Source: an uncultured bacterium
Lineage (GTDB): Bacteria; CALINM01
Length of the DNA: 9,936 nucleotides
Assembly (NCBI GenBank): GCA_938045315.1
Contig: CALINM010000057.1
Coordinates: forward strand, 1 to 9,936
Direction of reading: 5' to 3'
A model generated the notes under the pieces. It was not told where the DNA came from. It ran no database searches and saw only the letters and a list, made by a program, of their open reading frames with translations. Below, piece by piece: positions 121 through 9,936 of this stretch; position 1 is the stretch's first letter, and each line of letters begins with the position of its first letter. The position numbers and the translations under genes were made by a program.

Positions 121-1313
121 ATGAAAAAATTGATTTTAACCCTATTTATCTCATTAATGATGATTTCAATGTCAAATGCAGCTGATAAGATGGTATTTGG
201 AGCTGCTCTTTCATTGACTGGTAAGTTAGCAAAAGAGGGGAATTTAGTAAAAGATGTATATGAACTTTGGAAAGAAGAAGTTAACAAAAAAGGTGGCATT
301 AATGTGGGAGGTAAAAAATATTTAGTTGATATTAAGTATTATGATGATGAAAGTGACCCAAATAGAGGAGCAAAGCTTGTAGAGAAGTTAATTACAGAGG
401 ACAAAATTAAATTAATTCTTGGACCTTACGGTAGTGAATCAGTTTTTGCTACTTCTGCTATAATTGAAAAATATGGTGCTATTATGGTTCAGGGTGGTGC
501 TGCAGCTGATAAGCTGTACAAAAGGGGGTTTAAAAACCTTTTTGGTACTTACACTGTTGCTACAGAATATATGGATGACATCCTGAAAATGTTAAAAGAT
601 AAAAACCCTAGCCTTACTACTGTAGCAATTGTGTACTCAAACGACCTCTTTTCAGCTCAAGTTGCACAGGGTGCAAAAGCATCTGCTCAAAAATATGGTT
701 ACAATGTTGTTCTTTTTCAAGATTATCCAAAGGGAACACAAGATCTTTCAACTGTAATTGCTCAGATTAAAGGTAAAAATCCCGATATAATTGTAGGTTG
801 TGGGCATTTTCAGGACACGATTGTTATTGTAAAGCAGTGCAAAGATTATAAAGTTAATCCAAAGGCATTAGCATTTTCCGTAGGTCCAACACTACCCGAC
901 TTCGTAGATTCTCTCAAAGGTGATTCTGAATATGTTTTTGGTTCCGCTCAGTGGACAAAAAGTTTAAATTACAAAGATCCTGTTTCTGGCAGCAATACAG
1001 AATTTGTAAAGTTATATAGGGCAAAATATAAGGAAGATCCAAATTATCACTCAGCAGGTGGGGCAGCAGCAGCAGTTATATTCCAGAGGGCTATAGAAAA
1101 AGCTGGTACTTTTACAGATATTGCAAAAATCAGAGAGGCACTGGCAAACTATGATGAGGAAACGCTTTTTGGAAGAATAAAGTTTGATAACACAGAAAGG
1201 TAATTGGTAAGGGTATGGCTGTAATTCAAATATTAAAAGGTACACAGGTAACAGTTTTTCCTGAAGCTGTAGCAGAGGGAAAAATGGTTTATCCAAAACC
1301 GGCATGGAAGTAA
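121..1313 (+). pseudogene. livK: Liv-type ABC transporter substrate-binding protein, frameshifted near the C-terminus
   Basis: Periplasmic type I substrate-binding protein that would deliver branched-chain amino acids or a related ligand to the LivHM permease. The start at 121 is preferred over an in-frame ATG at 76 because AGGAGG (106-111) precedes it and a signal peptide begins there: MKK, a hydrophobic stretch, then a likely cut after SNA at residue 20. There is no lipobox Cys, so it is probably soluble. The body reads openly for 360 codons and contains family-like stretches such as YYDDESDP and ILGPYGS. The frame ends at TAA 1201-1203 just after FGRIKFD. One frame over, from 1203 to 1313, lies the expected C-terminal tail of 36 residues (IGKGMAVIQI to VYPKPAWK). 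One missing base near 1198-1202 explains both. It could be a real mutation or a sequencing error; the truncated product might still fold. An upstream TTGAAA (36-41), 17 bases, TTTAGT (59-64) is a weak promoter candidate. Confidence 0.85.
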
Positions 1314-1326
1314 AAATATAAAAAAT

Positions 1327-1372: not shown

Positions 1373-2248
1373 ATGATATTGCAGATTTTAGTTAATGGTG
1401 TATTATTAGGTGGTTTTTATGCTCTTATTGGAGTTGGATTTTCACCTGTCTGGGGTGTTACCAATATTATAAATCTAGCTCATGGTGCAATAGCACTCCT
1501 TGGTTCATATATTACTTATTATATGTTTCAAAATCTTCATTTGGATCCATTCTTAACGTTACCTGTAAGTTTTGTTTGTCTTTATATTTTTGGTTACCCT
1601 GTTCAAAGATATTTGATGAATATGGTGGTTAAAGCTCAGATATTCATGCTTCTGATATTAACATTCGGGCTGGAGATATTTTTAGTTAATTTTATGACTA
1701 CTTTTTTTTCCGCCGATTTCAGGTCAGTTACACCTGAATATGCAGGAAAAAGTATTGAAATTGCTGGTGTAGTTATACCTTATATAAGATTAGCAGTTTT
1801 TGCTATTTGTATGGTTGTTACTGCCATAATGGGATTTTTTCTTGAAAAAACGTGGACAGGCAAAGCAATAAGGGCTACATCTTTAGACCTTGAAGCTGCT
1901 ATGATGACAGGTATTAGCCCAAAAAAAATATATTCTATAACATTTACATCAGGCTCAGCTTTAGCAGGGCTTTCCGGTAGTCTTCTTTCATTAACACAGG
2001 CTTTTTCACCTAATATTGCAGGAGGTCTAGCTTTAAGGGCTTTTATTGTTGCCATATTAGGTGGGTTGGGACGTGTTGAAGGTGCATTTTTAGGTGGTTT
2101 ACTATTGGGAGTTATTGAAACGCTTAGTGCATTTTATATAGGTGAAAGCTATAAGAATGCTATTGCCTTTGGATTAATGGTATTTATGTTAATCGTAAAA
2201 CCATCAGGTCTTTTAGGCAGAAAATATTATGCGGAGGTTAAACATTGA
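1373..2248 (+). CDS. livH: Liv-type ABC transporter permease LivH
   Basis: Inner-membrane permease subunit, 291 residues, the usual length for LivH. It is strongly hydrophobic throughout, with the family stretch WGVTNIINLAHG (residues 27-38) near the N-terminus and the conserved late segment AILGGLGRVEGAFLGG. It would pair with LivM to form the channel energised by LivG and LivF. The start at 1373 is supported by AGGGGAG at 1359-1365. The stop overlaps the TTG start of livM by two bases, implying translational coupling. Prolines at residues 25 (GFSPVWG) and 76 (GYPVQRY) sit where, from memory of the family, leucine is usual; both are CCT and could each be one T-to-C change from CTT. The frame is open, but function is uncertain because the operon's livF is broken. 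Confidence 0.93.
   Translation: MILQILVNGVLLGGFYALIGVGFSPVWGVTNIINLAHGAIALLGSYITYYMFQNLHLDPFLTLPVSFVCLYIFGYPVQRYLMNMVVKAQIFMLLILTFGLEIFLVNFMTTFFSADFRSVTPEYAGKSIEIAGVVIPYIRLAVFAICMVVTAIMGFFLEKTWTGKAIRATSLDLEAAMMTGISPKKIYSITFTSGSALAGLSGSLLSLTQAFSPNIAGGLALRAFIVAILGGLGRVEGAFLGGLLLGVIETLSAFYIGESYKNAIAFGLMVFMLIVKPSGLLGRKYYAEVKH
2233..2237 (+). promoter_or_regulatory. Ribosome binding site that fixes the TTG start of livM
   Basis: GGAGG, within GCGGAGGT (2231-2238), lies seven bases before TTG at 2245 and inside the end of livH. No ATG lies between it and the first conserved hydrophobic segment of LivM, so it supports a TTG start. Confidence 0.7.
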
Positions 2249-3204
2249 TTAATAAAAAGTTAATTTTATTTATTGTCTTTGTAATTGTTTTGACTGCCCT
2301 TCCTTTTGTTATAAGTGGTTACTGGTTAAGGGTTTTAACTCAAACATTTCTCTTTGGTGCAATAGCAACGGGAAGTAATATTATAATTGGTTTTACCGGT
2401 TATCCTGCTTTTGGCAATATAGCTTTTTTTGGAATTGGTGCTTATGTTACTGGCGTGTTAACGACTAAATATAACATGCCCTTTTTTTATACGTTACCTT
2501 TCTGTGCAATTTCGGGAATTATAGTTGCTTCTTTATTGGGTATTCCTATTTTGAGACTTAAAGGGCATTATTTTGCTATTGCAACAGTGGGTGTAATGGA
2601 GACTATTAAAGAACTTGTAGATAATATGACTGAGCTTACAGGTGGTGGTCCTGGACTTACACTTCCCATAATGCAGGGGGAACCAGAGTATATTTACAAG
2701 TTTTTCTATTTTATTATGCCTGGTGTTATGCTTTTTTCTCTGTTAATTTTATTTATAGTATCAAAAATAAAACAGGGTTATGCACTTCGTGCAATAAGGG
2801 TTGATGAAGATGCAGCAAGCGTTATGGGAATAAATACACCAGTTTACAAAACCTTTGCTTGGGCTGTTTCTGCTGCACTTGTTGGAATTACAGGTGGCGT
2901 TTATGCATACTGGTTAAGTTATATCGATCCTCATACTGTATTTGGTGGGACATACCCTGTAAAAATGTTTGCTATGATTCTACTTGGTGGTGGTACAACG
3001 GTCATTGGACCAATGTTAGGTGCATTTATTCTGGAACTTATATCTGAAATCGTATGGAGTAAATTCATTGCAATCCATGGTATGGTGTTGGGATTGTTGA
3101 TTATTTTTATTATATTGTTTTTGCCAAAGGGATTATTTGAAACTTTTAAAGGTGGGTTTTCTTTTAAAAAACTCTTTAACAATCTAAAAGAAAATAGACT
3201 ATAA
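2245..3204 (+). CDS. livM: Liv-type ABC transporter permease LivM
   Basis: Second inner-membrane permease of the branched-chain amino acid type transporter, 319 residues, a normal length. Recognised by the LivM-like stretches GFTGYPAFGNIAFFGIGAY near residue 50, the GHYFAIATVG segment, and the C-terminal ILLGGGTTVIGPMLGA and FLPKGLFE. It starts with TTG at 2245, overlapping the livH stop (TGA 2246-2248) and placed seven bases after a strong GGAGG. It is followed 11 bases later by livG. The frame shows no lesion. Substrate cannot be read from the sequence; hydrophobic amino acids, amides, urea or aromatic compounds are all handled by this family. Confidence 0.93.
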   Translation: MINKKLILFIVFVIVLTALPFVISGYWLRVLTQTFLFGAIATGSNIIIGFTGYPAFGNIAFFGIGAYVTGVLTTKYNMPFFYTLPFCAISGIIVASLLGIPILRLKGHYFAIATVGVMETIKELVDNMTELTGGGPGLTLPIMQGEPEYIYKFFYFIMPGVMLFSLLILFIVSKIKQGYALRAIRVDEDAASVMGINTPVYKTFAWAVSAALVGITGGVYAYWLSYIDPHTVFGGTYPVKMFAMILLGGGTTVIGPMLGAFILELISEIVWSKFIAIHGMVLGLLIIFIILFLPKGLFETFKGGFSFKKLFNNLKENRL

Positions 3205-3215
3205 AAGGATGAAAG

Positions 3216-3953
3216 ATGGTTATATTAGAGGCTAAAAATGTTGCAAAAAGTTATGGTGGGTTAAAGGTTTTAACAGATGTTAATTTTGAAGTAAATAAAG
3301 GTGAAATTGTAGGTATAATTGGTCCAAACGGTGCAGGAAAAACCACATTTATGAATTTGATTTCCCGATTAACATCAATTACAGGCGGTATTATAACATA
3401 TAAGGGTGAAATTATAAATGACAAGAAACCCCATGAAATTGCAAGAATGGGAATTGCAAGAACTTTTCAAGTAGTTAAACCATTTGGAGGACTAACTGTC
3501 CTTGAAAATGTTATGGTAGGTGCTTTTTACGGAAAAAATAATGCTAAGTCTAAAAAAGAAGCTATATCTATAGCAGAAGAAGCACTGCAAATAGTTGGGT
3601 TGATAGATGTTAGGGATAAAGATCCGAGGGTCCTACCACTGGCGAAAAGAAAAAAATTGGAGGTTGCCAGAGCTTTAGCTATGGGACCTGAGCTTCTACT
3701 TTTAGATGAAGTCATGGCTGGGCTTAGTGTTAAAGAGTTAGATGAAATGATGACTGAAATAATCAAACTAAAGCAAAAGGGTATTACCATCATTGCTATA
3801 GAACATGTTATGAAAGCAATAATGGGTATTTCTGATAGAATTGTCGTTTTACATTTGGGCAAAAAGATTGCAGAGGGCAAACCTGAAGAAATAGTAAAAA
3901 ATCAAGATGTTATTGAAGCCTATCTGGGCAGTAAATATGCAAAAAAGGAGTAA
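3216..3953 (+). CDS. livG: Liv-type ABC transporter ATPase LivG
   Basis: Cytoplasmic ATPase of 245 residues that drives LivHM. Visible in order: Walker A GPNGAGKTT (36-44), Q-loop RTFQ (Gln85), a signature-region sequence LPLAKRKKLE (140-149), Walker B LLLLDE (160-165) and the H-loop His197 in AIEHVM. The usual LSGGQ is absent; a degenerate signature of this sort is, from memory, seen in a subset of Liv-type ATPases and is not necessarily damage. AAAGGA at 3204-3209 precedes the ATG at 3216. livF begins three bases after the livG stop. LivG normally works with LivF as a heterodimer, and LivF is broken here, so LivG may have lost its partner unless another LivF is supplied from elsewhere in the genome. 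Confidence 0.95.
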   Translation: MVILEAKNVAKSYGGLKVLTDVNFEVNKGEIVGIIGPNGAGKTTFMNLISRLTSITGGIITYKGEIINDKKPHEIARMGIARTFQVVKPFGGLTVLENVMVGAFYGKNNAKSKKEAISIAEEALQIVGLIDVRDKDPRVLPLAKRKKLEVARALAMGPELLLLDEVMAGLSVKELDEMMTEIIKLKQKGITIIAIEHVMKAIMGISDRIVVLHLGKKIAEGKPEEIVKNQDVIEAYLGSKYAKKE

Positions 3954-3956
3954 TTA

Positions 3957-4524
3957 ATGAGCCTTCTTGAAGTTAAAAATTTAAATACAGGATATGGTGA
4001 TTTACAAATACTTAGGAATGTATCAATAAATGTAGAAGAAGGGGAGATTGTGGATCTACTTGGTTCTAATGGTGCTGGAAAATCGACTTTAATGAGGACA
4101 TTGGTAGGTTTAAACAGAATATGGAGTGGGGAAGTGATATTTATTTAATGGTGTAAAACTGACGGATGCAACTTCAGATAAAATTGTAAAATCTGGTATC
4201 AGTATTGTTCCCGAGGGTAGAAGGCTTTTTGCCGGTATGACAGTAACAGAAAATTTGTATATGGGAGCGTTTGCAAATAGGAAAAATATACAGGAGAGGA
4301 TTGAAAAGATATTCCAAATATTCCCTCGACTATTTGAGAGAAAAGATTATCTTGATATAAACAAAAGCGGTGTAAGTATTTTGATAGTAGAACAGGATGT
4401 GCAGATGGTGCTGGAAATGTCTCAAAGAGCATTTGTTATGGAAGTTGGTTCTATAACACTCTCAGGCAAGTCTTCTGAGTTGATTAATGATCCCAAAATA
4501 AAATAAGCTTATTTAGGTATTTAA
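3957..4524 (+). pseudogene. livF: Liv-type ABC transporter ATPase LivF, multiply broken
   Basis: Remains of the second Liv ATPase. It starts at ATG 3957 after AAGGAG (3945-3950) and shows an intact Walker A, GSNGAGKST (36-44). Three lesions follow. (1) ATTT at 4143-4146 duplicates ATTT at 4139-4142 and shifts the frame, giving TAA at 4146. (2) From 4147 the proper frame resumes (NGVKLTDATSDKIV, then IVPEGRRLFAG, then FPRLFERKD), but it jumps near 4345-4362 straight to NKSGVSILIVEQD. About 50 codons are missing, including the LSGGEQQ signature and the Walker B region. (3) TAA at 4504 precedes AYLGI and a second TAA (4522-4524), the usual LivF ending, so it looks like a nonsense change. Aspartate at residue 33 (GEIVDLLG), where alanine is usual, may be a fourth hit. 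No product could hydrolyse ATP normally. Confidence 0.93.
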
Positions 4525-6205: not shown

Positions 6206-6775
6206 ATGGAGAGTTTTCTCACATCCTTTCTTATGGTTTTTGCAGCAGAGATGGGGGATAAAACGCAGTTTCTTGTGTTTTCTCTGGCTCTTAAATATGG
6301 TGGATTACCAGTTTTTTTTGGTGCCTCTTCCGCTTTTGCGATACTGAATGGGCCCGGTATTTATATTGGTAGTTTGGTATCAAGTTTTTTATCAGACAAA
6401 CTAATTGGAATAATTTCTTCATCAGTTTTTTTAATTTACGGGATTTATATGTTTTTTAATAAAGATAATGTTATTAACGAAGGTTCAGGTTCGGGAAAAA
6501 ATGGTTTTTTTGTATCCTTTGCAACAATATTTTTAGGGGAACTGGGAGATAAAACGCAGGTTTGTTCATTAGTTTTAGGGGCAAAATTTAAATCCTTTGG
6601 AACGGTTTTTTCAGGATGCTTTTTAGCATTAATTATTGCTACCTTTGTTGGGGTTTTTGTAGGTAGTAAAATCCAGAGGTTGCTACCTAAGGTTCCTTTT
6701 AAGAAAATTGCTGGATTAATAATGATTTTAACGGGGCTGTTAGGGATTTTTAGTATTTTTTTCTATAATATTTAA
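6206..6775 (+). CDS. GDT1/UPF0016 (TMEM165-type) cation transporter
   Basis: Small membrane protein of 189 residues with the two signature motifs of the UPF0016/GDT1 family, EMGDKTQ (residues 15-21) and ELGDKTQ (112-118), each at the start of a three-helix repeat. Characterised members move Mn2+ or Ca2+ out of the cytosol (for example the MneA manganese exporters), so cation export is the likely role. The ATG at 6206 is four bases after the transporter stop; a TTG at 6194 in the same frame is an alternative start overlapping it. Neither has a good ribosome binding site, so coupling to upstream translation is likely. The last 36 bases overlap the 3' end of the receiver gene on the other strand. 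Confidence 0.9.
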   Translation: MESFLTSFLMVFAAEMGDKTQFLVFSLALKYGGLPVFFGASSAFAILNGPGIYIGSLVSSFLSDKLIGIISSSVFLIYGIYMFFNKDNVINEGSGSGKNGFFVSFATIFLGELGDKTQVCSLVLGAKFKSFGTVFSGCFLALIIATFVGVFVGSKIQRLLPKVPFKKIAGLIMILTGLLGIFSIFFYNI

Positions 6776-7102
6776 AATCTCAAAAATACTAAAGGGTTTT
6801 AGAAGAAAGGAGTTAGCGCCTGCTTCAAGAAAATATTTTGATGCTTCTTCCAAGGAACTAATGCCAATTATTAAAAGTTGAGGGTATAGGTGTCTTATAT
6901 TTTTTACAAATTCTGCTCCATTTATACCGGGCATATCATAATCAATAATTAAAACTTCATAATTAAGTAATTCCTCATGTGAATAAATTAGGGATTGACA
7001 ATCACCTTGCTCTTTGACAACATAATCATTTATAGTAAAAAAATTATTTAAGAACTCTCTAATGATATGATTATCATCTATCACTAAAATACGTTTTTTC
7101 AT
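6740..7102 (-). CDS. Stand-alone CheY-like response regulator receiver protein
   Basis: Single receiver domain of 120 residues with no output domain. All key residues are present: acidic pair Asp9-Asp10 (VIDDN), phosphorylation site Asp54 (LIIDYDMPG), the switch Ser82 (IGISS) and Lys102 (LLKPF). It would be phosphorylated by a histidine kinase elsewhere and act through protein contacts or a phosphorelay. No kinase gene is seen nearby. The ATG at 7102 has no Shine-Dalgarno (aataatcccc precedes it), and a good promoter sits so close that transcription should begin at or next to the ATG, suggesting a leaderless message. Its 3' end overlaps the GDT1-type gene by 36 bases. The neighbouring XRE gene diverges from it. 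Confidence 0.93.
   Translation of the reverse strand: MKKRILVIDDNHIIREFLNNFFTINDYVVKEQGDCQSLIYSHEELLNYEVLIIDYDMPGINGAEFVKNIRHLYPQLLIIGISSLEEASKYFLEAGANSFLLKPFSIFEILNIIEKNTKNP
6749..6793. repeat. Perfect 12-bp inverted repeat at the convergent gene ends
   Basis: TTTAGTATTTTT (6749-6760) and AAAAATACTAAA (6782-6793) are exact reverse complements separated by 21 bases. The left arm lies within both overlapping coding ends; the right arm lies beyond the transporter stop and within the receiver gene. It may form a hairpin in transcripts from either strand and help termination or 3' end stability. The arms are AT-rich, with only two G/C positions each, and no clean U-run follows, so terminator function is uncertain. 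Confidence 0.45.
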
Positions 7103-7109
7103 GGGGATT

Positions 7110-7137
7110 ATTATAACACAATTTTTAGTTGTGTAAA
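7110..7137 (-). promoter_or_regulatory. Promoter of the receiver gene, giving a leaderless or near-leaderless transcript
   Basis: Read on the - strand: TTTACA (7137-7132), a 16-base spacer, then a perfect TATAAT (7115-7110). The expected start point, about seven bases on, is near 7103, directly against the ATG at 7102-7100. This fits the lack of a ribosome binding site. AT-rich sequence makes chance matches common, but both boxes are strong. Confidence 0.55.
7116..7134. promoter_or_regulatory. Operator-like inverted repeat between the receiver and XRE genes
   Basis: ACACAA (7116-7121) and TTGTGT (7129-7134) form a perfect dyad with a seven-base spacer, giving half-site centres 13 bases apart, slightly more than one helical turn. 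It fills the spacer of the receiver promoter and touches its -35 box, so a bound dimer would block it. The adjacent XRE regulator is the obvious candidate ligand, by position only. Confidence 0.45.
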
Positions 7138-7197
7138 TAAATTATGAACAACTTTCAATAAGTAGACTTTTTCAAAAAACTTTTTTAGAGTAATAAA

Positions 7198-7551
7198 GTG
7201 TTTGAAAATATAGATAAAATTGTGGGTTATAAAATAAGGGAGTTAAGAATCCTATCTGGCATGACGCAGAGCCAACTCGCAGAAAAAATAGGCGTTACAT
7301 ATCAGCAGATTCAAAAGTATGAGAAGGGCATAAGTAGCATTTCATTAAGGAGGTTATATGCTATTGCAAATACTCTTAATGTATCAATAAAAAGTTTTTT
7401 TGAAAATGTACCTTTAGTAGAGGAAGAGAATGTGAATTATTATTTGAGTAAAGAATGTATAGAAATTGCTAAACATATTAACGAAATTCATGACCAGAGA
7501 ATAAAAGATAACATAATTCAGTTAATACTGCTGCTTTCAAGTTCAAAGTGA
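7198..7551 (+). CDS. XRE-family (Cro/CI-type HTH) transcriptional regulator
   Basis: DNA-binding protein of 117 residues. The helix-turn-helix domain covers about residues 8-68, with the typical IRELRILSGMTQSQLAEKIGV core, recognition-helix region TYQQIQKYEKG and closing LRRLYAIANTLNVS. The C-terminal 45 or so residues (from VEEENVNYY) are helical and end in DNIIQLILLLSSSK; a comparable helical tail occurs in some XRE regulators and may serve dimerisation. The start is GTG at 7198, with only a weak AGAG (7187-7190) before it; starting at the ATG at 7261 would cut off the first helix. The 95-base gap to the divergent receiver gene holds the inverted repeat. No convincing promoter for this gene was found. 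Its stop is two bases from the convergent exchanger gene. Confidence 0.92.
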   Translation: MFENIDKIVGYKIRELRILSGMTQSQLAEKIGVTYQQIQKYEKGISSISLRRLYAIANTLNVSIKSFFENVPLVEEENVNYYLSKECIEIAKHINEIHDQRIKDNIIQLILLLSSSK

Positions 7552-8536: not shown

Positions 8537-9354
8537 GTGGAATTATCAACAGAAGATAATATAAATTGGATTTATAAACTAAAAAAACAGCTACTATACA
8601 CAATACTCATTGTAATTTTCTTTGTATTCCTCACAATTATTATATTTCTTAACATAGAAGTCAAAAGAAGTTTTTTAAAAAAATATGGAAAGGGATTCAT
8701 TTGAACTTGTCAATGCTATTCAGATGAGTATTAAGGGTCTAATGATCACAAGAAATTCTGATTTTATTCAGAGAACAGTTGAAAATATTAAAACTGAATC
8801 AGACATTAGCGAAATTACTGGTATCCATATACTTGAAATAAATGGGAAGGTTGTGTATTCATCAGAAAAAAATTTAATAAATAAAAAAATATGATAAGCT
8901 TCAGGATAAATCGTGTATTTTATGCCTAAAAAGAACAACCAGTTTCCTTCTATAAGTAGTATTGAATTGATACAAAAGGGAGAAAGGATTTTCAGGGTTA
9001 TTTCCATAGTGCCCAATGAGCCGGTTTGTTATGGATGTCATCAAGAAAATCAAAAAATAACAGGCAAGTTAATTATTGATAAATCAATGAAACAAATAGA
9101 GAGAGAAATAATTAGAATTCGGGTTATTATTGTGTTTATTGGTATCGTATGTGCTGCTATGTTATCACTTATAATCGGAGGTGCTGCTAGCTCTAAAACC
9201 TATTAGTATAGGATGTGCTTGTTGCCCATCAAATGCGGATAGGGTAAGGGATTTAATTAGCTTAGCTGATGAAGCTTTATATTATGCTAAAAGAAAGGGG
9301 AAAAATAAAGTTGTTACAGCAGATGAAATAGTTAACTTGTGTAAAAAAGATTAA
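8537..9354 (+). pseudogene. Decayed membrane diguanylate cyclase with a c-type haem sensor domain
   Basis: Remains of a sensor that would bind haem c outside the membrane and make cyclic di-GMP inside. Likely GTG start at 8537 (ELSTEDNINWIYKL), then a membrane helix (about 8591-8656). An extra base in the T6A7 run (8671-8683) shifts the frame. The outer domain resumes at 8685 (ERDSFELVNAIQ, GIHILEINGKVVYSS). A second extra base, in the A7 run 8883-8889, leads to TGA at 8892. In the next frame CILC (8914-8925) is followed by a missing base where His is expected, so a first CxxCH motif is destroyed. The second motif, CYGCH (9027-9041), is intact, followed by a second membrane helix (9123-9177). 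After that most of the cyclase is gone: only the GGDEF C-terminus remains, from PISIG (9199) through LISLADEALYYAKRKG to the stop at 9354. The catalytic GGDEF motif is absent. Confidence 0.85.
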
Positions 9355-9936
9355 CCTTTTAATAATCTATATTCTTCAAAGAAGCCCTTTATGTGTGCTA
9401 TCCCCTTAGAACCGCCATCTGATCCTATTTTTATACCCATTTATATGCTACTTTTATTTTTTCAATATGTTCCCTTGCAATTTGCTTTATGTTTTTTTTC
9501 TTTGCCTTCCAGAAATTTTGTTATGCTAATAAAGCATTTACTGTTGGGGCCATTTCAAATTAAATTCTTTCAACATGGTTATACTCTCCAGAGAAATAAA
9601 AAAACCATGTTCAATGGAAGGGTACGTTAGGAATTATTGATTCCTGTGCTTTTTTATCACCATTTACGTGACATGTCACATTAAGACCATTCATCTTGGC
9701 TTCCTATACATTATTTTAATTTCTTTTAAGAATAACCTCCCTTTGAGACAGGTTCGTTGGGGTTTTAAGTAACGATTCCCGAATTGACAACCTTTATAAA
9801 ATCAGCATCACTTTGATAAAGTTTTCTTAATAATAGGAATTTCTCTTTTATCTTTTATGGGATGTCCAATAAAAGAGCCGAATCCACCATCTTTATGAAG
9901 TGCATATCCACAGGTTTTAATACTTAATTTTTTTCT
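9351..9936 (-). pseudogene. Decayed metal-dependent amidohydrolase, running off the right edge
   Basis: No open frame survives, but hopping between the three - strand frames rebuilds an amidohydrolase of the imidazolonepropionase/prolidase-like type. From the edge inward: GGFGSFIGHP (within 9936-9811); SDADFIKVVNSGIVT (9812-9768), then TAA; NPNEPVSKGGYS (9764-9729), then TAA; NGLNVTCHVNGD (within 9703-9632); SIEHGFFISLESITML (from 9618, ending at W 9552-9550); APTVNALLA, a stop, and REHIEKIKVAYK (9553-9434); and GIKIGSDGGSKG to FFEEYRLLKG (9440-9351). H-x-N-G-D, S-I-E-H-G and G-S-D-G/A-G are the family's metal-site and active-site landmarks, in the right order. At least four frameshifts and three in-frame stops are visible. 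The last 80 or so residues normally after EEYRLLK are missing. The 5' part lies outside the window. Confidence 0.85.

Follow-up and report, generated by a model that had tools for sequence, protein, structure and literature searches.

A livF gene with three apparent lesions in a probably decaying Liv-type operon of an uncultured bacterium

The operon and its intact counterpart in a sister species

The window analysed here, a stretch of 9,936 nucleotides, is the entire contig C57 of an assembly of 1.86 Mb in 244 contigs with an estimated completeness of 91.8%. As reference served its closest relative, genome G001 (MAG SKW176), which is the sole other genome of the genus in the comparison set; the phylum is represented by just three genomes (G000-G002) in the genome collection searched, and the lineage is hence very sparsely sampled. 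The first half of the window holds five genes in the order livK-H-M-G-F, and this order, together with best matches to Liv/Urt-type families, identifies them as an operon for a Liv-type importer. In NCBIfam, the best matches are the LivF, LivG, LivM and LivK models for the respective genes, and for livH first UrtB and then LivH, but all matches lie below the curated cut-offs, so that the substrate of the operon is not settled by them. In the syntenic region of G001, every frame is open, with livK encoding 397 aa, livH 291, livM 319, livG 245 and livF 235 aa. Compared with this region, the operon in the window has the following features:

121 to 1314, plus strand: livK (periplasmic binding protein), pseudogene by a 1-bp deletion relative to the intact 397-aa G001 ortholog
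1373 to 2248, plus strand: livH permease, open, with L25P, L76P and L193S relative to G001 (ORF, alignment)
2245 to 3204, plus strand: livM permease, open, with L136P and L159P relative to G001 (ORF, alignment)
3216 to 3953, plus strand: livG ATPase, open, 92% identity to G001 (ORF, alignment)
3957 to 4524, plus strand: livF, apparent pseudogene with three lesions (alignment to G001 livF, tblastn, ORF frames)
4139 to 4146, plus strand: ATTT tandem duplication in livF, +4 frameshift (alignment to G001 livF)
4353 to 4354, plus strand: junction of a 141-bp in-frame deletion in livF (alignment to G001 livF)
4504 to 4506, plus strand: TAA nonsense codon in livF, replacing Q before AYLGI (alignment to G001 livF)

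Lesions in livF and livK

The intact livF of G001 (G001:C139:7183-7890) has the motifs LSGGEQQ and LLLIDE, and alignment of the window gene to it recovered all three lesions that had been proposed in an earlier note on this DNA. The duplication, ATTTATTT at 4139-4146, is a +4 insertion relative to the ortholog, by which frame 1 stops after 63 codons at the TAA of 4146-4148, and a continuation in a second frame begins at 4147. The in-frame loss, which had been put at about 50 codons with a junction between 4345 and 4362, measures 141 bp or exactly 47 codons between 4353 and 4354; the corresponding 47 residues are present in G001 and include the ABC signature LSGGEQQ, Walker B and the D-loop. 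At the junction in the G001 sequence, no more than a single base of microhomology was seen by eye. The TAA at 4504-4506 takes the place of the Q in the QAYLGI of G001, and AYLGI continues in frame directly behind the stop. In agreement with these lesions, tblastn of an intact LivF against the window gave three pieces (residues 3-64, 61-132 and 180-235) with 84-91% identity.

Without the signature and Walker B motifs, an ABC ATPase is unable to hydrolyse ATP. A functional LivF is recognised by a continuous frame with Walker A, an LSGGQ-type signature and Walker B, and such a frame is absent from the window livF; what is found instead are the marks of a bacterial pseudogene, namely disruption relative to an intact syntenic ortholog and loss of essential motifs (ABC signature, Walker B). 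As judged from these comparisons, the lesions are real differences from the intact ortholog and the window livF appears dead. An ATG-started ORF of 89 aa at 4237-4506 might be taken to mean that the fragments give rise to a novel functional protein of smaller size. This ORF, however, is collinear with the LivF remnants and lacks Walker A, signature and Walker B; moreover, mechanical ORFs of comparable length abound in the window (27 of at least 60 aa), which leaves such a protein hardly any credibility.

The state of the operon differs in part from what had been described. It stands that livF is dead while livH, livM and livG are open, but the frameshift in livK had been missed, and livH and livM carry Leu-to-Pro changes. 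Relative to G001, a single base is missing from livK near 1193, which leads to a premature TAA at 1201-1203 and cuts off about 38 C-terminal residues; the broken frame ends in KFDNTER, and the ancestral frame picks up as RKVIGKGMAVIQ and continues to YPKPAWK and a stop at about 1313. When the differences between the two species were judged against distant homologs (for the liv proteins, the best of these reach about 37-52% identity), the window copy of livK was the worse one 21 times and the G001 copy 7 times, whereas in livG and livF window-side and G001-side worsening were about even. In livH and livM, four of 36 differences from G001 are proline gains in the window (all Leu-to-Pro) and none goes in the reverse direction, compared with no proline gain among 196 differences in the SPFH, EamA, TMEM165 and Na/Ca exchanger genes of the same contig. 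In LivG, the signature position reads LPLAKRKKLE and Walker B reads DEVMAGL; since G001 carries the same variants, they do not represent a lesion.

Local decay or assembly error

Further genes near the end of the contig are degraded as well. A GGDEF sensor gene at about 8550-9350, the ortholog of which is intact in G001 with 552 aa, has frameshifts and a deletion of about 840 bp at 9199|9200 that removed most of the GGDEF domain. An amidohydrolase gene remnant on the minus strand (about 9355-9936, at the contig end) has many indels relative to the 264-aa G001 protein and is degraded further than livF. Between TMEM165 and the Na/Ca exchanger, at 6740-7551, the window carries a response-regulator receiver-domain gene and a Cro/C1-type HTH gene, neither of which lies between the G001 orthologs of these two genes.

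A sample of about 335 kb, corresponding to 18% of the genome, was screened using 69 G001 ORFs with orthologs. Seven of them were flagged, three inside the window (livK, livF and GGDEF) and four elsewhere, the latter with stops near the ORF ends (codons 5 and 42 of 685, 8 of 472, 5 of 205, and 197 of 199) that, judged without case-by-case inspection, most likely reflect differences in start or stop sites. Clear breaks were thus found in three of ten window orthologs, and none was found among the approximately 59 orthologs outside the window in this 18% sample (Fisher p = 0.002, whereby livK and livF do not count as independent cases and the numbers per region were compiled by hand). The decay is therefore local and not genome-wide; a genome-wide decay was rejected also in view of a coding density of 93% in the sampled stretches.

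The fact that every clear break in the sample sits on C57 could also point to an artefact, i.e. a low-coverage mixed-strain contig with false indels and a misjoin, especially as the assembly is fragmented and incomplete and several of the lesions are small indels. However, the breaks are limited to livK, livF, GGDEF and the amidohydrolase, whereas livH, livM, livG, SPFH, EamA, TMEM165 and the Na/Ca exchanger, together about 6 kb of the same contig, are unbroken, as are the orthologs on other contigs. The clean, codon-phased deletion of 141 bp and the deletion of approximately 840 bp are not base-calling errors, as the earlier note had already argued for the livF deletion. The contig also is not foreign: its identity to G001 is about 77-80% across the first 6.7 kb and 68-73% over the remainder, within the range of the genome (72-81% on other contigs), and a contamination was rejected on these grounds. 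An artefact is thus unlikely, and by all these comparisons a biological pseudogene appears far likelier than an assembly error.

Redundancy, selection and known pseudogenes

Other liv loci exist in the same genome. Complete livKHMGF sets are kept on contigs C50 and C25, and C215 carries livG, a CoA ligase gene, livH, livM and livF. The LivF proteins of these three loci are intact but only 42-47% identical to the intact G001 ortholog of the window gene; by their sequences they are paralogs that may serve other substrates. A second copy of the window livF, for which a search had been suggested, was not found in the assembly, from which about 8% of the genome may be absent. With three other loci that encode an intact LivF, the loss in the window would be buffered, or the substrate would no longer be needed. 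The intact paralogs, together with the open frames and low dN of livH, livM and livG, could also suggest that the operon still functions, with LivHM and LivG relying in trans on the LivF of a different liv locus and only this livF being dispensable. However, livK is frameshifted as well, the permeases have Leu-to-Pro changes, and the other LivF proteins are distant, so that a functional operon of this kind is very improbable; the same slight chance is given to a shift to shared parts, in which permease and LivG are retained while LivF comes from another liv locus and the binding protein acts in trans.

The surviving codons of livF tell about the age of the decay. Calculated with the NG86 method against G001, dN is 0.04 in two of the surviving pieces and 0.10 in the N-terminal piece, near the values of livG (0.054) and SPFH (0.046), whereas dS is about 1.0-2.3 and saturated. 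These codons thus look constrained, which suggests that the inactivation is recent: livF probably stayed under selection during most of the period after the two species separated and died only lately, with an age that the saturated dS bounds roughly. A relaxation of selection on the operon is weakly visible, as livF dN is not strongly raised, livG is conserved as in G001, and the excess of Leu-to-Pro changes is confined to livH and livM.

Two of the five genes, livK and livF, are broken and the others are beginning to erode, and the whole operon is thus decaying in what is ordinary gene decay. Very probably it is a pseudo-operon of young age: the Liv-type (HAAT) importer with its five genes livKHMGF is intact in the sister species and decays in this lineage. 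The importer would have lost its use, and once a first gene was broken, selection on the remaining genes would have been relaxed and more lesions would have accumulated, i.e. the small duplication, deletion and nonsense codon in livF, the 1-bp deletion in livK, and the missense changes to proline in the permeases. We infer the order of these events, the loss of transport, and that the other liv systems buffer this loss. For annotation, livK and livF should both be marked as pseudogenes, and this importer should not be counted among the transporters of the species. The locus is an example of the loss of one redundant transporter in a lineage from which few genomes have been sequenced.

The intact LivF of G001 (NCBIfam NF008626), the ATPase of a Liv-type branched-chain amino acid importer, shares with the window copy the gene order, Walker A and the AYLGI end, and the two are 87-92% identical in the parts that survive. 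The window copy differs from it by the +4 frameshift, by the absence of the 47 codons that include signature and Walker B, and by the premature TAA. The description of this state as an unusual mid-decay state goes too far, as pseudogenes with several lesions are a described minority class: in Salmonella, two or more inactivating mutations were present in 32 of 378 curated pseudogenes (PMC2916853). The window livF is a new instance of this class, and like the Salmonella cases it combines several lesions (small indels, nonsense changes, deletions) within a single gene that has kept its syntenic position, but unlike them it comes from a MAG whose lineage is sparsely sampled and is one of two affected genes in the same operon.
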